Virus record (IMG/VR): IMGVR_UViG_3300031521_000033
Span: 1-64,000 of that record
From: a virus
DNA length: 64,000 nucleotides
Direction: 5' to 3' (one strand)
Shown: positions 2,028 through 45,438 of the stretch, one piece after another
Numbering within the stretch: position 1 is the stretch's first letter
Layout: each line of letters opens with the position of its first letter
Made by a program: the position numbers and the translations under genes
Notes under the pieces: model-generated
What the model saw: the letters and a program-made list of their open reading frames with translations, nothing else
Told to the model about the DNA's origin: nothing
The model's database searches: none

Positions 2028-3503
2028 TTAAGCTGATGTTGACAGCACCGTTGGCTTAGTTTCTATTGGATCTTGTGCCGTACTGTCGGCCATAAGATTT
2101 GCTATCGTTGCATTAATTACATTATCGTCTTGATCCTTTAATGTATCCCTAATTACTTTTTTCTTCAACTCAATATTGTATGAAGGGCATATGTTTAATG
2201 CCAATCCCTGTGTTGCAACGTTTAATGAATCAATCGAATCCACAATACCAAATTGACTGTTATATGTTACTGTTACATTTGTTGCATCTAAATTTTCGCT
2301 CACGTATAAACCAAATATATTTGCAACTATCTGTTCAACACTCTCAAGATTCTGTGCAAACTCTGCAATCGTTTGGAATAAATTTGCATTGTCCCATTCT
2401 TTTGCTATTCCACTTTCCTGTGTTTGAACGCCTGTAACCAACTGCAAACTTGCCATTCTGTATATTTCTTGTACCATCCAAGTTATCTCGTCTGACAACA
2501 TCTTTGACGGGGCCGCATCTGGTGATATAAATTCTGGTTTCTGTGTTCCAGCTTTATATGCTAACAGATCTGTTGTACCAACGGCGATACTTTTTGCAGA
2601 TGCAAAATCATCCTCTTCACTAACCGGATAGGTAAGTAAACTAAACGCCTGATTTCTATTACGTTCTCTAAGTTCGCTGCATGCGTTGTATATGGCGTAA
2701 TTTGTACGGGCTATTGCATATATGTCTGATTGTGGTATAAGCCCTTCTGAGTCGTTTAAAGCACCATATATTGGAATTACTGGTATAATACCAATCTCGT
2801 TTGTTCCTTTCGTACTATCCCCATCTGCATCAACCTGATATGTATCATTTGTCCAAGTCCATGTTTCTGTGTATAATACCTTTTCTCCATCAACTATTTT
2901 AGTACTTCTAATGAAGTATTTTATGTAAATTAATTTTCCAAATTTATCAATAGCCCAATCAGTAACATGATCCGGTCTAACTAAATACAAGTATGGATAT
3001 AATCTGTTATCTTTTGCCGTTTTCAACGATACAGGTTCGGACGTATCTAATTTATCCATATCAACTACAATAAATTGAACCCCATGTAACTTTGCTCTTA
3101 TGGCGGCCCTCTTCATAAACCTATTCATTGATGTTCCTTTTCCGTCAACATTCGATAAAAAATCACCATAAAACTTTGAACCTGTAAATTCCCTTCGTGG
3201 TGAAGTTTTAAATATAGGATTAACATGTGCATCAACAACTGGTTTAACATAATTACAGTAATATGATAAACCTCTACGTCTATTGTATTTGTCTGCTGGT
3301 TCTCTTGGATGGGCTATTAAATATGCACCATCTTCAAAACCGCCGCTGGCTCTATAGCAATCATCTAACAATTTATATTTATTTGGCATTCCATGAAATG
3401 GTACTGATGCTAATAATCGTAATAGTAATGTTTCCTCTTCACTGCACACGCCACTATCCGGTTCATTTGAATCATAAATCTTTTGGTCATGTTTATTTGA
3501 CAA
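2028..3503 (-). CDS. Portal protein
   Basis: 491 aa, within the usual range for phage portals. The sequence has the portal-like N-terminal crossover (YCNYVKPVVDAHVNPIF near residues 82-98), a central region with IYGALNDSEGLIPQSD, and a long helical C-terminus. It is the dodecameric ring through which DNA enters and leaves the head. The gene lies between the large terminase and the Mu F-like protein, the classical order. Translation starts at a TTG with AAGGAGG 7 bases upstream. Confidence 0.87.
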   Translation of the reverse strand: MSNKHDQKIYDSNEPDSGVCSEEETLLLRLLASVPFHGMPNKYKLLDDCYRASGGFEDGAYLIAHPREPADKYNRRRGLSYYCNYVKPVVDAHVNPIFKTSPRREFTGSKFYGDFLSNVDGKGTSMNRFMKRAAIRAKLHGVQFIVVDMDKLDTSEPVSLKTAKDNRLYPYLYLVRPDHVTDWAIDKFGKLIYIKYFIRSTKIVDGEKVLYTETWTWTNDTYQVDADGDSTKGTNEIGIIPVIPIYGALNDSEGLIPQSDIYAIARTNYAIYNACSELRERNRNQAFSLLTYPVSEEDDFASAKSIAVGTTDLLAYKAGTQKPEFISPDAAPSKMLSDEITWMVQEIYRMASLQLVTGVQTQESGIAKEWDNANLFQTIAEFAQNLESVEQIVANIFGLYVSENLDATNVTVTYNSQFGIVDSIDSLNVATQGLALNICPSYNIELKKKVIRDTLKDQDDNVINATIANLMADSTAQDPIETKPTVLSTSA

Positions 3504-3515
3504 TATATTACCTCC

Positions 3516-4838
3516 TTATATTCCAACCCTCATTGCCGCGTTTCTGATGTTATCTTTATCCCTATTTGTATATACTCCGTACCGAAACCCATCACAAGTA
3601 TGATCGTCAACTTCTTTTGGCGCATCAATTCCCTTTAATTGTGCTTTTTCATCCCATGAGTATGTTGATATTTGCTTGATGGTATTCTTGCACTCGTCAA
3701 CAACATAAAATCTGTCAGATCCAATCATTGTTGCAACTGTACGAATACCATCCAATACTGAATTTTGTGCATTTCTAACTTTCATTCTGAATCTTCTTAA
3801 CTGCAATCTAAAACTAGCTGCCGCCGGATCAATTAGTATCTCAATCTGTTTATAGTTTAATCCTGTTATTTTTGTATGTAGTGTTATAAACTCTTTCATA
3901 TCTTCTGAATAGTCTAAATCTGTTTTCTGAGATTCTTCTGTATGGCCATCATAATAATATTCTTTAACAGTGAAGAATTTTCCATCATATGTTTTGCACT
4001 GTAGCAGAAACACTGTTGCATTACCTGTACCATAATCGCATGCAACCCACCATTTTCTAACTTTATTAAATGGTACATCTTCTAATTTTATTACATGCCG
4101 TTCACTGACAAACATATCATATATAAGACCATCTGCAAGACACCACTGCCCTAAAATGAACCTCTTATAAAATACACCGCTGTAATTACGTTTATATCTG
4201 TCCTTAATTTTTGTTGATAATGAAGGGTTATCGTCCATATCAAAATGAAGATATATACCATTTTTTTCACTTAGTTTTTGTATAAGCTCTGTATAAACCC
4301 AATGGTATGGGCTTCCTGGATTACAGTTAATGAATATTTTACTATCTTCAACTGAGCATCTTCCTGTTGCTTGATTGTAAAATGATTCTGGCATTAAAAC
4401 TACTTCATCAAATAATACAGAACAGAATGTTGAACCCTGTACTAAATCCTGACTTGCCTCATCCTTGCCGCCGAAGATCCAAAACTTATTAACTACACTT
4501 CCCTTGAATATTTCTATGTAACTTAATGATATATTTTCCTGTATCTCATATCCAAGACTTATTAACATTTGCTTTAATGGTGAAAGGACATTACGTTTAA
4601 ACGCCCCAATTGTCTTACCACACATTCCAGCATCCATCTGGTTAAAATGACTCATTACATACAATATAAAAGATAATGTTAATATAATTGTCTTTCCACT
4701 ACGAATTGCGCCGTCTGCAATTATTATATCTTTATCTTTTACAGGGCTATTATCAGCCCAAAATGTTAATACTTTTAATTGCTTTTTTGAAAATGGTTTA
4801 AATTCAAATCCCTTTGTCTCATACTTCCTTAATGCCAT
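3516..4838 (-). CDS. terL: Terminase large subunit
   Basis: 440 aa packaging motor. The N-terminal ATPase has a Walker A-like motif DGAIRSGKT (residues 42-50) and a Walker B motif VLFDE (141-145), with FINCNPGSPYHW nearby as the coupling motif. The C-terminal RNase H-like nuclease domain begins at VACDYGTGNA and contains a second acidic strand ILIDPAA, which would bind the catalytic metals. This is the PBSX/Terminase_3 type. It overlaps the small terminase gene by 20 bases, consistent with translational coupling. Confidence 0.95.
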   Translation of the reverse strand: MALRKYETKGFEFKPFSKKQLKVLTFWADNSPVKDKDIIIADGAIRSGKTIILTLSFILYVMSHFNQMDAGMCGKTIGAFKRNVLSPLKQMLISLGYEIQENISLSYIEIFKGSVVNKFWIFGGKDEASQDLVQGSTFCSVLFDEVVLMPESFYNQATGRCSVEDSKIFINCNPGSPYHWVYTELIQKLSEKNGIYLHFDMDDNPSLSTKIKDRYKRNYSGVFYKRFILGQWCLADGLIYDMFVSERHVIKLEDVPFNKVRKWWVACDYGTGNATVFLLQCKTYDGKFFTVKEYYYDGHTEESQKTDLDYSEDMKEFITLHTKITGLNYKQIEILIDPAAASFRLQLRRFRMKVRNAQNSVLDGIRTVATMIGSDRFYVVDECKNTIKQISTYSWDEKAQLKGIDAPKEVDDHTCDGFRYGVYTNRDKDNIRNAAMRVGI

Positions 4839-5535
4839 CTAAATCATCATCCTTATCGTCCTTCCAAACTTCTAATGATTTAGAATTAATTGCTTCAAGA
4901 ATATTGCTACCAGCTTTTTCATCTTTAGCTTTTTCAGCTTGCCAACTAAAGAACTCTTTCAAACGGTCCCATGCCCATTTTTGATCTAATAGTTCAATTG
5001 ATACACCATCTCGGCCTTCTTTAATCTTGCTAATAAGGCTTGTATCCAAATATGCACTATCTTGTAATTCAACCTTATTAATCTTGCGAGTCATAACTTC
5101 TCCAGTGTCAGGATCTTTTACAACTCCACATAAATTAACAATTGGTATTACTTCTGATTTGAATTTAACAAAATCACCAATATTTGCATTTGCAACTTTC
5201 TGTAGAAAATTAACATACTGTGTTACATCTATTTCCATTGCATGTAGCATTATTTTCTTTACAGCTTTTAATTCTTTTTGTACCGATGGTTTTGCCATCA
5301 ATTTACAGCCTTCATATGTTGCCCTTGCTCTAGTTACTGTAGGATCGTTATCTCGATATGCCTTAAGATAAGCTGATGTTGCATTTCCGCTTTCAACTAC
5401 GTATAATACAAACTCTTTTTCCTTATCACTAATATTACTATCACATACATGTTCTATCATCTTATTTGTAATAGCTTTAGATTTTGATGGTTTAATATTT
5501 GCTTCAATGATATCATCTTTTTTCTTTCTCGCCAC
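4819..5535 (-). CDS. terS: Terminase small subunit (Terminase_2-like)
   Basis: About 238 aa. The middle has SDKEKEFVLYVVESGNATSAYLKAY, followed by YEGCKLMAKPSVQKELK: the helix-turn-helix and conserved region of the Terminase_2 family, which recognises the packaging site and assembles as a ring beside the large subunit. The N-terminus is lysine rich (ARKKKDD). I chose the GTG at 5535, because AAAGGAGG is 7 bases upstream; the in-frame ATG at 5556 overlaps that binding site and cannot use it. Confidence 0.88.
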   Translation of the reverse strand: MARKKKDDIIEANIKPSKSKAITNKMIEHVCDSNISDKEKEFVLYVVESGNATSAYLKAYRDNDPTVTRARATYEGCKLMAKPSVQKELKAVKKIMLHAMEIDVTQYVNFLQKVANANIGDFVKFKSEVIPIVNLCGVVKDPDTGEVMTRKINKVELQDSAYLDTSLISKIKEGRDGVSIELLDQKWAWDRLKEFFSWQAEKAKDEKAGSNILEAINSKSLEVWKDDKDDDLDGIKEV

Positions 5536-5564
5536 ATAATTACCTCCTTTATACACCTACATTA

Positions 5565-5593
5565 ATTATAACACATTTTTACTAATTTGTCAA
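5565..5593 (-). promoter_or_regulatory. Promoter for packaging/head operon
   Basis: Minus-strand TTGACA (5593-5588), 17-base spacer, TATAAT (5570-5565), with TGT directly before the -10 as an extended -10. It lies just upstream of the small terminase and just downstream of the tRNA transcript's end. Confidence 0.88.
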
Positions 5594-5607
5594 TACCTTT
5601 GCACAAA

Positions 5608-5660
5608 ATAATAGCCATAATTAAGTTAACGAATAATCGCAACCTGATCATGGCTATTAT
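5608..5660 (-). terminator. Inverted repeat ending the tRNA transcript
   Basis: Perfect 11-base arms (5650-5660 and 5608-5618) enclose a 31-base loop, followed on the minus strand by TATTTTG. It is placed between the tRNA-like RNA and the terminase promoter, so it probably ends or protects the RNA transcript. The long loop and short U-run make it an imperfect intrinsic terminator. Confidence 0.45.
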
Positions 5661-5689
5661 AAAAGGAGATAATAAAAATGAATAAGTCT

Positions 5690-5835
5690 GTTTTTGGGAA
5701 TTAATGGATTTGAACCATTTATATACGTGAATACAGCCACCAAGACTTTTCCCATATGGAGCACCACCACAGGATCTAACTGTGATTATGGCTTTACAAA
5801 AGCCACGTACTAACATTATACTAGTGGTGCAGTAA
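5690..5835 (-). ncRNA. Structured RNA with tRNA-like T-arm
   Basis: Directly after the tRNA on the minus strand. A 7-bp stem (5824-5830 with 5761-5767) closes a multiloop containing two hairpins: GGCTTT/AAAGCC arms at 5799-5804 and 5790-5795, and CACAG/CTGTG arms at 5780-5784 and 5768-5772. Next comes a perfect T-arm-like hairpin: 5-bp stem 5715-5719 with 5703-5707 and a 7-base loop TTCAAAT. It is flanked by GGGAA/TTCCC (5749-5753 with 5696-5700), as in a tRNA acceptor stem. The space between acceptor and T-arm is too short for both a D-arm and an anticodon arm, so a normal tRNA is excluded. An 84-codon reading frame covers this stretch but has no ribosome binding site. Confidence 0.5.
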
Positions 5836-5838
5836 TAT

Positions 5839-5915
5839 TGGTGGGACCTGATGGGAACGATCCATCGACCTGTCCGTTATGAGCGGAATGCTCTAACCAA
5901 CTGAGCTAAGGTCCC
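5839..5915 (-). tRNA. tRNA with anticodon CAT (Met or lysidine-type Ile)
   Basis: Complete cloverleaf on the minus strand. The 7-bp acceptor GGGACCT/AGGTCCC runs from 5915, with discriminator A at 5842 and a genomically encoded CCA at 5841-5839. The D-arm is GCTC/GAGC and the anticodon loop is CTCATAA. The T-stem is GATGG/CCATC with loop ATCGTTC. The anticodon stem lacks the three G-C pairs of initiator tRNA, so this is elongator Met or the Ile tRNA that needs lysidine; sequence alone does not decide. The T-loop has A54 and T58 instead of the normal T54 and A58. Confidence 0.93.
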
Positions 5916-5918
5916 ATT

Positions 5919-6011
5919 AATATAGGTAATATTAACCCCAACCATCGTTAATATACTTGATGACCAATCAGTCTCATACATAATGTCATCCCCGTTGTTT
6001 CATCCTATATT
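5919..6011 (-). ncRNA. Three-way-junction leader RNA ahead of the tRNA
   Basis: Starts a few bases after the -10 element at 6015-6020. An 8-bp closing stem (6004-6011 with 5919-5926) encloses two hairpins: a 6-bp stem (5985-5990 with 5959-5964, 20-base loop) and an 8-bp stem (5947-5954 with 5929-5936, 10-base loop). The tRNA 5' end follows 3 bases after the closing stem. It has no plausible start codon and ribosome site. It may be a stable small RNA released by RNase P cleavage of the tRNA 5' end. Confidence 0.55.
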
Positions 6012-6014
6012 TAT

Positions 6015-6043
6015 ATTATAACACATTTTTACTTACTTGTCAA
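6015..6043 (-). promoter_or_regulatory. Promoter for leader RNA and tRNA
   Basis: Minus-strand TTGACA (6043-6038), 17-base spacer, TATAAT (6020-6015), extended -10 TGT. A perfect consensus directly in front of the structured leader and tRNA. Confidence 0.9.
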
Positions 6044-6049
6044 TACTTT

Positions 6050-7243
6050 TTATAAAACTAATTTTGTTCTTGTTGTTCCAACTGTGAAATAGAAACCATC
6101 ACTTGCTTTTTCAATTGTTCCATCTAACGCTCCTGCTGCAACTGCTGCCGCCGGAAGTAATGTTGATGTTCTAATTCTTACAGGTGACATTGTAAGCGGT
6201 GATGCTCCTAGTCCGCCGTTTAAAGTAGCCGCACCGCCAACACCTGTTGATAGATACATTAATGCTACAAAAGCTATTCCACCTGTCCCTGCGACCGCTG
6301 GTGATGCTAATGTTGTAATAGGTACACTTGATAGTACAGACATACCACTTGATGTTGTAGTGAGTACTGGAGTATTTGTAGTTGTCATTGATACAAGTCC
6401 TGATACATATGCCGCTGTTCCTGCTACAACTACCTGACCAACTACTGAATCTGATGTATGTGTAAATGCTATTGCTCCACCAATTGCTAATGCAATATTA
6501 TCTGGTGCATCAACTTTAAATGATGCTCTATTAGCAATAAAACTACCTGTTGCTCCTGTAGTTGAATAAAAACAACGTGCCGATGCATTTGAATGTAGAA
6601 CACTTACATTACCATCTAATAATTGTATTTTACTTGCAGAATTTGTATTGGTCCATACAATTGCATCTCCCACGCCTGATGGGGAAACACTATTAACAAA
6701 ACTATTTATTAGTTGTAAATTAGCTGCTGCAGATCCACTAAATGATAATGTTGTTCCTGATCCTGCGGTTGCTGCATTTTGCAATACAATATTTTCACCA
6801 ATAACTGTACCTGAAAATGAAGATACATGATTACCAATAATATAAACACCATATTTAACAGGTGATGTTATATTTACTCCTGCCTTTAGTGTTATATTCT
6901 CTGTGTACATACCAGGATATACACCTATTGTATAACCACTTGAAGCAACGTCTATGGCCCTCTGTACTGTTAAATAAGGTGAACCTAAACTACCATCACC
7001 TGCCGTATCATTACCATTTTTAGAAACATATAGATAATTACTTGGTTTGATCAAACTATCAACAGCTCCTTTAAGCCACCAACCATTTCCTGTGGCCGGG
7101 TTTATATTTTTATTACTCCACACATATTCTGTTTTAGTATCTAATTCAGTAAAATTGGCCAATTCATATATCTTACCTGTAGGCTTATCATCTGAAAAAA
7201 GACCACTATAATTAAGTTTATTTATGTCATAATAAACTGCCAT
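6050..7243 (-). CDS. Beta-helix repeat structural protein (decoration or tail spike)
   Basis: About 397 aa. After a 70-residue head region comes YLYVSKNGNDTAGDGS followed by SPYLTVQRAID, the start of a right-handed parallel beta-helix of the DUF1565/pectate-lyase-like type. The remainder is a long Gly/Ala/Thr/Ser-rich repetitive beta region typical of phage fibres, spikes and capsid decorations. I chose the ATG at 7243 because AAAAGGATG precedes it; the frame opens earlier but inside the upstream terminator. The gene stands alone between RNA loci, far from any tail gene in view. It has no close promoter of its own apart from readthrough of the terminator at 7271-7301. No lyase residues can be assigned. 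Confidence 0.7.
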   Translation of the reverse strand: MAVYYDINKLNYSGLFSDDKPTGKIYELANFTELDTKTEYVWSNKNINPATGNGWWLKGAVDSLIKPSNYLYVSKNGNDTAGDGSLGSPYLTVQRAIDVASSGYTIGVYPGMYTENITLKAGVNITSPVKYGVYIIGNHVSSFSGTVIGENIVLQNAATAGSGTTLSFSGSAAANLQLINSFVNSVSPSGVGDAIVWTNTNSASKIQLLDGNVSVLHSNASARCFYSTTGATGSFIANRASFKVDAPDNIALAIGGAIAFTHTSDSVVGQVVVAGTAAYVSGLVSMTTTNTPVLTTTSSGMSVLSSVPITTLASPAVAGTGGIAFVALMYLSTGVGGAATLNGGLGASPLTMSPVRIRTSTLLPAAAVAAGALDGTIEKASDGFYFTVGTTRTKLVL

Positions 7244-41970: not shown

Positions 41971-44900
41971 TTAATCCTCTTTTTTCAACTCTATTAATTT
42001 TCCACCTTCATCAAAAGTGTATTCTTGACCATACCATACGAAGCTATATACTGCATCACAGATCAATTGAGCTTTTAAATCATTACCAGCACTTACCATG
42101 CATTCCTCTAATATCTTACCAACTTCTTGTGCATGCTCAACTGGGCATTCCATAATAATTTCATCATAAATCTGTAATAACATATGTGCATCTAATTCTT
42201 TTAACCGCCGATCTCCAGCTATTGTCCTATTGTATACTGCAATCATAGCCTTTTTTGTTAAATCTGCTGCTGTACCCTGAATCGGCGAGTTGAAACTTTG
42301 ACGTGTTGCCTGTGCAATAAACCCACCATTTTGTCTAATATTAACATGCTTTGTTCTTGCTTGCCTAATAATTTCATCTTTTTCTTTGTATGATCTTGTT
42401 TGGCTTAATGCTGTTAAATATGATGCTTTAATCTCATCTGATACATTTTCACCAAATTCAAAATCAGGTAATTGAATATCAGGAAGTCTACGTTTTCTTC
42501 CAAAAAATGTTTCTACATATCCGTTTAGTTTTGCACTAATTACAACATTTTCTAAATATCTTGAAAGTTCAGGATAAGCTCTTAAAACTGCATCTTGTAT
42601 TTCTTGTGCCTTTTTATTATCAACATGTAATTCTTCTGCAATTGCCGGTATTCCTTTTCCATAGATGATGCCAAGGCAAACTTTTTTGGCTTTGTTTCTT
42701 CTGTCCTTGCCTTCTTTATATGTTGTCCCATCTGCATTCTTTTCAACACATTCTTCATACTTAAATCCAAATGCAATACTTGCTACTGCTGAATAAATGT
42801 CCTTCTTATCTGCAAATGCCTTTAACATTTTATGATCATCTGCAATTGATGCAACTGCCATCATTTCCTGTTGCGAAAAATCACACCCTACAAATATCAT
42901 TCCATCTGTTGCTTTAAACATTGTTCTAATTTCTTCATTGTGACTTGGAATATTACTCAGATTTGGTTTTTTACATGTAAACCTTCCTGTATTATGACAT
43001 ATAACAGAATTAGCTATAAAGCTGTGCGTATTTGGCACATGAAAATCATATACATCATTTGTTCCAGTCTCAATTTTTGTAACTGGTAAATAAATATAGT
43101 TACAATACTGTAATGGTTTATCCATTTTATTAGTTGACATTGCACATGCCTTTTTTGTTTCAATCACCCCTACTTCCGTTATAAATGTATTGTAGCTAAA
43201 CCTTGATATTGTTATTCTATTATATTTATATTCGTGATATTTACTGTCAGTTCTGTTTATAGCAGATAGTATACCATAATTTAGTAAAGACCCCTGTATA
43301 AATTTAGCCGTTACATCATCTGTTATACTTAATTTTAATCTGTTCCCACATAAAGAGCTATCAAGTGTACACCCCTTAATAAATGCCTTTATAACACTCC
43401 ATGGGGACATTCTAATTTCTTTACATACTTTTTTATTCCTTGCCCCATGTTTAATATAATCATCAAACCATGAAATACCTTTGCTAGATACATATGTTTC
43501 CATTGTTGTATTTGCCTTTATAGTTTTACCATTTATACCGAATACACTGTTAAATAAGTATTTAACCCTGTTAATTACATCAGGATCATCATTTGATATT
43601 CTTATAGTATATGATCCATTTGATGTTCTTATACTACCATCTGCATTGTACACACCAAGTAATTCTGCTAATTCTTCTGTCATCACACCTGGTTTACTTT
43701 TTGGTATTACTTTACTTCGTGTGGTGGGAATATATGATGATTTTGAAAGGTTTACATAGTTAGCTGGGAACTTTTTAAACCCAAATGGTATTTCAACCAA
43801 ATCACCAATTGTTAGATCCTTTAGTAGTCTGAACTTTCCGGTTGTATACAACTTCTTGTCATAATTTATTCCTCGGTTAGTATGTCTATTAGCTAGTGTA
43901 TACCCCGACACTCTAATAGGATGATGGGGCGTTCCCTCAATTGTAATTCCCATTCTTGTAGTTATTTTAATCGTATCTATACTACTAAATTTTATAACCT
44001 TTGATGCTACTTCATACTCACAATCCTTATTCACAATTATAGTGTCCGTTGATTTAAAGGTATTATCCTCCACATTGCCAACTATATCCGATATTTCCTC
44101 ATACCCCTTAGAGGTAATTACTAGACTTTCCCCCGTAATGCAGTCAGCACCTACCGTATTGTAATTACCATGTATTCGTCCGTCACCTGCTTTAGCATTT
44201 TCAATTAGTGGATCTATATATGTTCCAATTAATTTGCTAATTCCTCTAATATTTAAAATAGCCTTTGCAATTGGTATTTCTGGTATTGTTTCTAATACTT
44301 CCACACCCGTTGGTCTTGTCATTTTCTTTGTCTTTTTATCCCGGACTGGCTTTAATACTTTAAGAACATCATAAAACATTGTAGCCAATTGCTGTGGGCT
44401 TGCTGGATTTGGTGGATATTCAATATTGTTGTGCTTTGTCTGGCATTGATACATTTTAATTTCTGGTTCTAATTCCGCGCAGCATCTTAAATATTCTTCA
44501 TGGTATTTCTTACCAATATTATCATATTTAATCTTTAATTCATATGCCCTTGCTAAGTCTAATTCTATCCCTCTGTCCATCATTTCTGCTGTTGGTGTTA
44601 ATACTGGTATTTCAATATTATAGAATATATCACAAACCCTGTCCAGCTTTTGTTTAATACATTCTGGTGTTCCCTTTGTAAGATATGGAAGTTGAAATCC
44701 AAATAATTCAAATGTCATTTCAGCATCATGTGCCGCGTATGGATAGCCTGTTTCAATTGGTAACATTGGAAATGGGATACCATCAAATAATTCGCCAAAC
44801 TTGAATATGTCTGCTTTACCATTTAATATATATTTGTTATGTAAAAATTTTAACCCATGTTCATCTTCATTTTCATTTAACAATCTCGATGCAATATATG

Positions 44901-45438
44901 TATCCCAATAACATGGTAAAATAACTCCTACTTGATGTTTAATTACTCTTCTATCAAACATGTAATTATGCCAAATAATTTTAATATTTAAATCAACAAT
45001 CATTTGCATAGCCTTTTTTATATCTTTAATAGATATTTGATTATCTACTTTTGCTCCTGTAATATATGATACATGATTTATTGGAATATAGCAAGCAACT
45101 TGTGAAGGTGAATATAAACTTATTCCTGCAATAACATCTTTGAATACATCTAATCCGCTTGTTTCTGTATCCATTGCGATTATTTCATCTTTTGTCGCTC
45201 TATCTATATATTCAAATAATTCATTTGCATCTCTAATTACATAATACTTTGCTTTATACTCCGCAAGACTGCTTTCTACCATAGCTTTAATTCCGGCTAT
45301 CTTATCAATTAGTGAATTTCCACCCTTTAGTCTTACCTTTGCACCCATACTCTCAATATCTGACGTCTTGCTTAATAGTAAAGAATCCCTACTCGAACTA
45401 TTGGCTCTTGTAGGGATCTTAACACTAAATAGACTCAA
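41971..45438 (-). CDS. Family A DNA polymerase with 3'-5' exonuclease and an intein
   Basis: 1155 aa precursor; 771 aa after removal of the intein (residues 433-816). The exonuclease has MDTET at 89-93, WHNYMFDRR and YAAHDAEMTFELF. The polymerase has TGRFTCKKPNLSNIP directly after the intein, motif A VGCDFSQQEM, motif B KVCLGIIYGKGI and motif C QIYDEIIMECP. The usual motif A and C residues are slightly changed (Q-Q-E-M; Y-D-E), but the catalytic Asp residues remain. It is the main replicative polymerase candidate. The TTG start has only a weak ribosome site; a later start would shorten the N-terminus only. Confidence 0.93.
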   Translation of the reverse strand: MSLFSVKIPTRANSSSRDSLLLSKTSDIESMGAKVRLKGGNSLIDKIAGIKAMVESSLAEYKAKYYVIRDANELFEYIDRATKDEIIAMDTETSGLDVFKDVIAGISLYSPSQVACYIPINHVSYITGAKVDNQISIKDIKKAMQMIVDLNIKIIWHNYMFDRRVIKHQVGVILPCYWDTYIASRLLNENEDEHGLKFLHNKYILNGKADIFKFGELFDGIPFPMLPIETGYPYAAHDAEMTFELFGFQLPYLTKGTPECIKQKLDRVCDIFYNIEIPVLTPTAEMMDRGIELDLARAYELKIKYDNIGKKYHEEYLRCCAELEPEIKMYQCQTKHNNIEYPPNPASPQQLATMFYDVLKVLKPVRDKKTKKMTRPTGVEVLETIPEIPIAKAILNIRGISKLIGTYIDPLIENAKAGDGRIHGNYNTVGADCITGESLVITSKGYEEISDIVGNVEDNTFKSTDTIIVNKDCEYEVASKVIKFSSIDTIKITTRMGITIEGTPHHPIRVSGYTLANRHTNRGINYDKKLYTTGKFRLLKDLTIGDLVEIPFGFKKFPANYVNLSKSSYIPTTRSKVIPKSKPGVMTEELAELLGVYNADGSIRTSNGSYTIRISNDDPDVINRVKYLFNSVFGINGKTIKANTTMETYVSSKGISWFDDYIKHGARNKKVCKEIRMSPWSVIKAFIKGCTLDSSLCGNRLKLSITDDVTAKFIQGSLLNYGILSAINRTDSKYHEYKYNRITISRFSYNTFITEVGVIETKKACAMSTNKMDKPLQYCNYIYLPVTKIETGTNDVYDFHVPNTHSFIANSVICHNTGRFTCKKPNLSNIPSHNEEIRTMFKATDGMIFVGCDFSQQEMMAVASIADDHKMLKAFADKKDIYSAVASIAFGFKYEECVEKNADGTTYKEGKDRRNKAKKVCLGIIYGKGIPAIAEELHVDNKKAQEIQDAVLRAYPELSRYLENVVISAKLNGYVETFFGRKRRLPDIQLPDFEFGENVSDEIKASYLTALSQTRSYKEKDEIIRQARTKHVNIRQNGGFIAQATRQSFNSPIQGTAADLTKKAMIAVYNRTIAGDRRLKELDAHMLLQIYDEIIMECPVEHAQEVGKILEECMVSAGNDLKAQLICDAVYSFVWYGQEYTFDEGGKLIELKKED
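42991..44142 (-). other. Intein in DNA polymerase with DOD homing endonuclease
   Basis: 384 residues from Cys433 (CITGESLVI) to Asn816 (SVICHN), followed by Thr. Block B is GTPHHP; block F/G is VYDFHVPNTHSFIANSVICHN-like with the His-Asn end. LLGVYNADGS and FIKGCTLDSS are the two LAGLIDADG motifs. Insertion is exactly before the conserved TGR motif of the polymerase, so splicing is needed for activity. Confidence 0.92.

Follow-up and report, generated by a model that had tools for sequence, protein, structure and literature searches.

A tRNA-like element of 59 nt, too short to hold normal D and anticodon arms, lies directly downstream of two ordinary tRNA genes in a Bacillota-type phage of 94 kb. 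The reading that we favor, at a probability of roughly 0.4, is that this element is a compact tRNA mimic serving as a processing handle for RNase P and RNase Z at the end of a tRNA operon. It is predicted to have no usable decoding arm and would be unable to decode.

The RNA operon and its terminal element

The virus record comprises 94,209 bases with a G+C content of 33%, and the window, the whole stretch of DNA that was analysed (64,000 nucleotides), corresponds to its bases 1-64000. Because the record ends overlap by 124 bp and a contig of another sample spans both ends at 100% identity, the genome is probably complete and either circular or terminally redundant. Relatives of its terminase, portal and capsid proteins are found mostly in Bacillota phages, with best hits of 44-51% protein identity, and the nearest named relatives are distant (TerL 51%, capsid 44%); the collections searched contain no close one. 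The DNA polymerase of family A (41971-45438, minus strand) carries an intein-like insert with a LAGLIDADG domain, for which the Intein_splicing model scores below its curated cut-off.

The RNA unit, encoded on the minus strand, has a tail-like gene (end at 6050) on one side and the terminase small-subunit gene (5556-4819) on the other. In order, it consists of a consensus promoter, tRNA-Met, tRNA-Thr, the spacer UAU, the 59-nt element and a strong hairpin with a T-rich tail:

6015..6043, minus: promoter of the RNA operon, TTGACA-17 nt-TATAAT with TG before the -10; 12/12 consensus matches, activity predicted from consensus alone
5839..5915, minus: tRNA-Met (CAT), CCA encoded; ARAGORN, Rfam RF00005 61 bits
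5757..5830, minus: tRNA-Thr (TGT; anticodon UGU), CCA encoded; ARAGORN, Rfam RF00005 54.9 bits, fold z -3.9
5754..5756, minus: 3-nt spacer UAU between the tRNA-Thr CCA and the element; from sequence
5695..5753, minus: mini tRNA-like element, 59 nt, no encoded CCA; from sequence, folds and T-arm uniqueness
5753-5747, minus: 5′ acceptor strand; from sequence and fold
5746-5736, minus: D-like hairpin with loop UUGGU; predicted fold
5735-5720, minus: second hairpin; predicted fold
5719-5703, minus: T-arm AATGG TTCAAAT CCATT, five Watson-Crick pairs; from sequence
5702-5696, minus: 3′ acceptor strand AATTCCC, directly 3′ of the T-arm; from sequence
5695, minus: discriminator-like A; from sequence
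5608..5660, minus: strong hairpin, then T-rich stretch; fold -25.1 kcal/mol, z -6.5, 0/200 shuffles
5565..5593, minus: second perfect promoter, for the downstream terminase small-subunit gene; 12/12 consensus matches

The hairpin at 5608..5660, which is absent from the output of a short-loop terminator scan, is together with its T-rich stretch the probable end of the RNA operon, and the promoter at 5565..5593 would set this operon apart from the terminase small-subunit gene. The two promoters (6043-6015 and 5593-5565, minus strand) are nearly identical, both perfect, and share their flanks. A structured RNA in the leader (5916-6018) is unsupported by its folding energy (z -1.15; -0.44 for a shorter piece). 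An 84-aa open reading frame (5562-5816) that overlaps the element is taken as spurious; it has no family match and runs across tRNA-Thr. Both tRNAs carry unusual elbow residues. In tRNA-Thr (5757-5830, minus strand), the standard elbow pair G19-C56 is exchanged for U19 (D-loop) and A56 (T-loop, TTAGATC), a compensatory swap in a numbering made by inspection. The T-loop of tRNA-Met (5839-5915, minus strand) reads ATCGTTC, with A54 and U58 replacing T54-A58, by inspection a swapped reverse-Hoogsteen pair.

The element itself reads GGGAAAA-GTCTTGGTGGC-TGTATTCACGTATATA-AATGGTTCAAATCCATT-AATTCCC-A (minus strand, 5753-5695). The first-pass annotation had noticed a perfect T-arm with the loop TTCAAAT and a GGGAA/TTCCC acceptor-like stem, and both are present: the T-arm at 5719-5703 has five Watson-Crick pairs, and the last five bases of AATTCCC pair with GGGAA at 5753-5749 in exact tRNA register. 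The acceptor comprises these 5 bp and two A.A mismatches, at positions 6-53 and 7-52. Between the 7-nt acceptor strand and the T-stem we counted 27 nt, in agreement with the earlier estimate that ~30 bases are too few for a normal tRNA, where this spacing is ~41 nt (the mean over 271 tRNA middles). The element thus has a canonical T-arm, with 5 bp, a TTCRANY loop and an acceptor strand immediately after it. It lacks the canonical 7-bp acceptor and the 7-nt anticodon loop on a 5-bp stem, its second hairpin having 4-5 bp and a 6-nt loop.

The pairing of T-arm and closing stem is a real feature of this genome. When both strands were scanned, the element held the sole Watson-Crick T-arm of the form TTCRANY. 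In 60 genomes simulated with a first-order Markov model, 0.4 such T-arms were found per genome, and a matching closing stem accompanied one in 0/60. The closing stem alone is weaker evidence, as 7% of shuffled versions of the 37 nt upstream contain one somewhere. Moreover, the folding energy of the element is ordinary for its composition (z -1.25 and -1.59; 16/200 and 25/200 shuffles fold as well in two runs), as would be expected if a T-arm-like hairpin had been assembled by chance. We nevertheless reject this explanation in view of the simulated genomes and of the location 3 nt past a tRNA; the case is carried by the T-arm, its exact register and that location in combination. By inspection, AAGUCU at the start of the element (5748-5743) can pair with AGACUU downstream (5689-5684, minus strand), an alternative fold that is possibly due to chance.

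Class assignment and predicted fold

Scans with ARAGORN and Rfam, which the first-pass annotation had suggested, called tRNA-Thr and tRNA-Met upstream and nothing in the element. No canonical tRNA was called there by ARAGORN or by Rfam RF00005 at gathering, and no RF00005 line appeared up to E 10. A "closed multiloop with two hairpins" that had been described just upstream proved to be a misreading of the ordinary tRNA-Thr(TGT) at 5830-5757, which both programs find. The tRNA-like domain of tmRNA combines an acceptor, a T-arm and a D-loop with no standard anticodon arm, and a degenerate tmRNA-like element had been suggested. We reject this assignment on the grounds that neither the tmRNA mode of ARAGORN nor Rfam gives a tmRNA match, and that 59 nt are far too few to accommodate a tag frame and pseudoknots.

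The bacterial Y RNA YrlA is bound by Rsr/Ro60. A YrlA/Y RNA was rejected as well: the PF05731 (TROVE/Rsr) model, which fires in 1/14 controls, has 0 matches in the phage genome, Rfam gives no Y-RNA match, and the element has no long end stem as found in YrlA. YrlA is itself a bacterial tRNA mimic that has been proposed in phages as well (PMC12282133). In phage csAssE-Sib (L201 5806-7775), a Ro60-related (Rsr) gene lies directly downstream of tRNA-Tyr and tRNA-Lys, and this setting might be a place to look for a tRNA-mimic Y RNA.

The minimum free energy (MFE) fold of the 59-mer is a linker-less mini-cloverleaf composed of the 5-bp acceptor, the hairpin AGUC-UUGGU-GGCU, the hairpin GUAU-UCACGU-AUAU and the T-arm, with pair probabilities of 1.0-0.74 for the acceptor, ~0.83 for the D-like hairpin, ~0.45 for the second hairpin and ~0.9 for the T-arm. 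The earlier statement that there is no space for a D-arm and an anticodon arm therefore stands for arms of normal size, which do not fit, but not for reduced ones, since in this fold the 27 nt accommodate two shrunken hairpins, one D-like and one in second position. In the numbering of the element, the predicted layout is acceptor 1-7/52-58, D-like arm 8-18, second arm 19-34 and T-arm 35-51, with an acceptor/T stack of 12 layers. The GG of the D-like loop may dock on the T-loop in such a fold.

As a control, we generated 3000 shuffled versions of the 27-nt middle between unchanged ends. The ends were kept together with two hairpins in 5.4% of these shuffled middles and together with GG in the first loop in 7.3%, while the ends, two hairpins and GG in the first loop coincided in 0.33%, a combination that was picked after the fold had been seen. 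Equal stability was reached by 64% of the shuffled middles.

The proposal in the first-pass annotation that the element is a tRNA mimic is supported by the acceptor, T-arm and GG-bearing D-like hairpin in tRNA register. It also gains from the lack of any tRNA or tmRNA call, and from a predicted layout like that of mascRNA and menRNA, the tRNA-like RNAs of mammalian MALAT1 and MEN-beta. Rfam contains a mascRNA/menRNA family, and no match to it was found up to E 10 in 5500-6050. The layout of these RNAs, four helices with no linkers, an acceptor at 1-7/52-58 and a T-arm at 35-51, is present in the predicted fold of the element with acceptor pairs 6 and 7 unformed. The size class is shared, and the predicted helix register is nearly that of menRNA (1-7/52-58, D 8-17, second arm 18-34, T-arm 35-51; PMC11693755), its 3′ side being one base off mascRNA. 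Both mammalian RNAs lack tRNA linker residues and are L-shaped in crystal structures, where two D-loop guanosines form the elbow (PMC11693755); the GG in the predicted D-like loop UUGGU may be their counterpart. Their maturation by RNase P and RNase Z is followed by the addition of a CCA that is not encoded (PMC11693755). The element differs in that it belongs to a bacterial virus, has 5 acceptor pairs versus 7 and a weaker second arm, and is known here by its predicted fold; no homology is claimed. Judging from the structures and cutting described for mascRNA and menRNA, an RNA of this size can form a physically sound cloverleaf with no linkers, and processing substrates of that kind are already known from another domain of life.

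An unusual working tRNA, with arms reduced as in some mitochondrial tRNAs, is hardly credible. Although four helices can be drawn, and by inspection the loop UCACGU offers the anticodon CAC and the 7-nt reading CTGTATT offers GTA, the second loop has 6 nt, the 7-nt reading lacks a 5-bp stem, and there is no CCA. In addition, mascRNA is not aminoacylated, and mascRNA-type geometry is said to impede charging (PMC11693755).

Processing, decay and other explanations

The main rival to a processing handle, and one nearly as likely, is a tRNA pseudogene. On this view the element descends from a third tRNA gene in the array, has been stripped of the D and anticodon arms, and decays with no function to preserve it. 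Phage tRNA arrays differ in content, the A.A mismatches in the acceptor and the absence of CCA and of a tRNA call would suit such a remnant, and tRNAs with single deletions do occur among our viral hits (L037, L221 and L258, see below). To place the middle of the element on this scale, it was scored against position profiles of 271 tRNA middles with one deletion allowed. It scores -8.2, with its own shuffles at -5.9 +/- 5.2, whereas control tRNAs reduced to 27 nt by one random deletion have a mean of 13.7 and a 1st percentile of -5.4. A single clean deletion of a normal tRNA is therefore rejected. Nor is the element a fresh truncation, because its middle has lost every trace of tRNA positional signal while the T-arm and closing stem are intact. 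Indeed, the middle is scrambled, yet the entire 17-nt T-arm and the five closing pairs match the consensus, and a mini-cloverleaf with a GG loop is rare by chance. Loss of signal in the middle beside perfect ends would favor selection on the ends. It is also possible that recombination brought in a 3′ tRNA fragment and that the GGGAA is there by luck.

Diverged homologues were sought in viral_contigs with DNA patterns and with TerS, TerL and DNA polymerase searches, which returned only 100% identical contigs and one 38% TerL relative. A 17-mer from the middle of the element occurs in 8 stretches, of which two are known copies and the other six are taken as chance, and blastn of the element against phages gave no convincing match. 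The finding of identical copies only weakens the case for a handle, since they offer no covariation and selection cannot be shown from them.

A fragment of a host tRNA gene, carried by the phage as an attachment site for integration, is very unlikely. Phages that integrate into tRNA genes do usually share with the host a core that includes the T-arm and 3′ acceptor strand, and integration commonly leaves fragments of tRNA genes behind (PMC9897764). However, the 94-kb genome, which is probably complete, has no tyrosine or serine recombinase domain (0 matches to PF00589 and PF00239), and an exact search of genome_contigs for the 24-nt core gave 0 matches. Nor would an attachment site account for the closing strand at the 5′ end or for the tandem setting.

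For a processing handle, we envisage that the last unit of the phage tRNA transcript folds into the 59-nt linker-less mini-cloverleaf, in which a short hairpin replaces the anticodon arm. Host RNase P would cut at the 5′ end of the element, three bases past the tRNA-Thr CCA. After this cut, tRNA-Thr would carry a tail of 3 nt and be parted from the strong 3′ hairpin, which would otherwise block trimming from the end. Once freed, tRNA-Thr would be open to 3′ trimming. RNase Z may cut after the 3′ A of the element.

Several observations argue for the handle: the unique perfect T-arm and closing stem in exact register, the tandem place 3 nt past a CCA-bearing tRNA within a promoter-to-hairpin unit, and an MFE mini-cloverleaf with a GG loop that is rare among shuffles. 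The register shared with menRNA, which like mascRNA is cut by both enzymes, points the same way, as does the occurrence in viral contigs of tRNA-like elements too short for a decoding arm, some of them tightly tandem with tRNAs. The likely substrate requirements are also in its favor. RNase P correctly cuts a hairpin made of nothing but an acceptor and a T stem-loop, one of its classical substrates (PMC11143913), and a 12-bp acceptor/T stack acts as a ruler for the enzyme, for which the D-loop appears dispensable (PMC4919913). The element keeps the acceptor/T-arm part that RNase P reads in these minimal substrates and lacks the CCA. A 3-nt spacer is also found in a dimeric pre-tRNA of phage T4 (PMC11143913), and natural non-tRNA substrates for comparison include tmRNA, 4.5S RNA, phage M3 RNA and C4 RNA (PMC11143913, PMC4919913).

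Other observations weaken the handle. The second hairpin has a pair probability of only ~0.45, in a fold whose stability most shuffled middles equal, and the survey set described below is mixed, including single-deletion tRNAs and a longer degenerate tRNA (L058). Bacterial RNase P favors CCA, which is encoded in both true tRNAs of the operon and not in the element. The missing CCA and the two A.A mismatches argue against efficient cutting.

A decoy or bait RNA, an elbow-and-acceptor mimic that would occupy modifying enzymes, the CCA-adding enzyme or host defences that cut tRNAs, is possible but improbable. Many tRNA enzymes read the T-arm and acceptor, some host defences cut tRNAs, as Septu cuts tRNA-Tyr during T6 infection (PMC13096335), and an RNA ligase encoded by the phage (47178-48191, minus strand; PF09414/phrog_968) would fit tRNA repair. 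Against this, the phage has a single copy, whose transcript would equal the tRNAs in number (1:1); a defence aimed at the anticodon or the variable loop would miss the element, and no defence target is known.

The processing handle has partial precedents, as tRNA mimics cut by RNase P and extra stable RNAs that end the T4 tRNA operon are already known. The latter are species 1 RNA (rnaC, 139 nt) and species 2 RNA (rnaD, 119 nt), which lie at the 3′ end of their operon as the element does in its own. Species 1 RNA ends in a perfect T-arm, CCGGG-TTCGAAT-CCCGG. Both RNAs are twice the length of the element and have large extra hairpins, in a comparison of sequences made by inspection alone, and no role for them was found in the literature searched. 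The same literature held no description of phage mini-tRNAs without a decoding arm or of a 59-nt linker-less mimic in a bacterial virus.

Short tRNA-like elements in other sequences

Viral and cellular contigs were surveyed with two gapped patterns that required a T-arm loop and a closing 5-mer with room too small for a normal tRNA; two T-stem pairs were required. ARAGORN tRNAs and near-duplicates were removed before distinct elements were counted. The pattern GGGAA..TTCCC matched 53 stretches in viral_contigs, of which 52 loci were scored (the second window copy, L003, was left out); 49 of its 53 hits lie outside ARAGORN tRNAs and represent 36 distinct elements, 25 of them with all five T-stem pairs. 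GGGGA..TCCCC matched 64 stretches with 65 hits, 54 outside tRNAs and 39 distinct, with a 5/5 T-stem in 32/39. In genome_contigs (cellular sequences), GGGAA..TTCCC matched at least 118 stretches, and 118 were scored. Among the matches listed there were 122 hits, 47 in ARAGORN tRNAs and 75 outside, giving 59 distinct elements outside tRNAs with a 5/5 T-stem in 21/59. A fully paired T-stem is thus commoner in the viral than in the cellular set (25/36 versus 21/59 among the matches listed; Fisher p 0.0016), although viral and cellular rates per base are not comparable, the cellular count being a lower bound. Several cellular hits are prophage copies or coding-like sequence.

The D-loop-like motif [AT]GG[TC] was not part of the search patterns. 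It is enriched in the second viral set (19/32 versus 9.2 expected, 0/1000 shuffles; 7/7 versus 1.3 expected for gaps up to 16, the shortest elements, where the excess is clearest), where it is weakest as evidence because it was first noticed there. The first viral set has it in 16/25 (10.6 expected, 24/1000 shuffles), and a weaker tendency in this direction is seen in the cellular set, with 10/21 among the matches listed (5.9 expected, 34/1000 shuffles). The viral loci hold 20 further distinct elements of other sequence, versus 2 in reversed sequence, although fewer than 20 are independent, since some repeat counted elements as near-copies or in shifted register; among the first 80 cellular loci there are 2, versus 0 reversed. 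Several viral contigs carry two or more elements.

Four of 53 examined elements lie within 6 nt of a tRNA (the window copy L002, L030, L036 and L217), and 7/61 viral minis are predicted to fold, like the window element, with two hairpins between the ends. A gene start follows 5-80 nt downstream of 20/52 minis, compared to 7/52 in the mirror direction, 66/288 tRNAs and 522/2000 random positions, a weak association. The set is mixed: L037, L221 and L258 score 17-23 on the tRNA-middle profile and are plainly single-deletion tRNAs, the L058 hit sits inside a longer degenerate tRNA, and others are elements between genes. In six named tRNA-rich phage clusters (L199-L204), every relaxed hit falls within annotated tRNAs except one, a 43-nt element of the cultured Alishewanella phage Slicko01 (OQ508956.1 18988-19030; L202 5383-5425), located 17 nt past tRNA-Pro and before tRNA-Tyr, where no tRNA is annotated or called.

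We tentatively raise a broader possibility, to which we give about one chance in three: the element, as a natural convergence on the mascRNA/menRNA shape, may belong to a widespread, unannotated phage class of miniature tRNA mimics that punctuate phage transcripts for RNase P/RNase Z or act as tRNA decoys. Its members would measure about 39-65 nt, have an acceptor, a T-arm and a D-loop-like GG with no decoding arm, and occur in tRNA arrays and between genes. If so, phages would use stripped-down tRNAs as processing signals, as mammals use mascRNA and menRNA and mitochondria use whole tRNAs, and the tRNA-like scraps that tRNA finders skip in phage genomes would be explained. Such a class would also offer a test for the purpose of extra stable RNAs in phage tRNA operons, such as T4 species 1 and 2, and would supply RNase P and RNase Z with minimal substrates of natural origin.

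Other tRNA-like sequences emerged from the survey. Five loci (L018 4329, L019 1701, L025 677, L026 2962 on the minus strand and L057 6532) share a conserved upstream domain of ~120 nt and a tRNA-like 3′ domain of 48-58 nt ending CTTTCCCCTAT, with a start codon ~30 nt beyond it. The four of these that were scanned have no Rfam match and no tRNA, and from its sequence the group looks like a new phage RNA family. On L259 (minus strand, 2152-4795) there is a tRNA-like series in which some members have a D-arm-like start and a T-arm, with inserts of varied length replacing the anticodon arm; several are followed by ACGTAA. Tandem pairs of mini tRNA-like elements ~100 nt apart occur on L263 (2216-2254 and 2334-2373), where hairpin-like sequence precedes each, and on L045 (minus strand, 1074-1118 and 1178-1228).

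A phage tRNA-like gene within a tRNA cluster (L022 1195-1257) has a normal acceptor, an anticodon-like arm and a T-arm, with hardly any D-arm. Related tRNA-like sequences of 52-65 nt with GGGAACACAGC-like starts and a T-arm are found in Pelotomaculum and relatives (L094, L104, L122, L142, L147, L151 and L153). Finally, six viral contigs (L209, L220, L227, L234, L252 and L253) carry a 63-nt tRNA-like family whose members have an AU hairpin resembling an anticodon arm but lack a clear D-arm.
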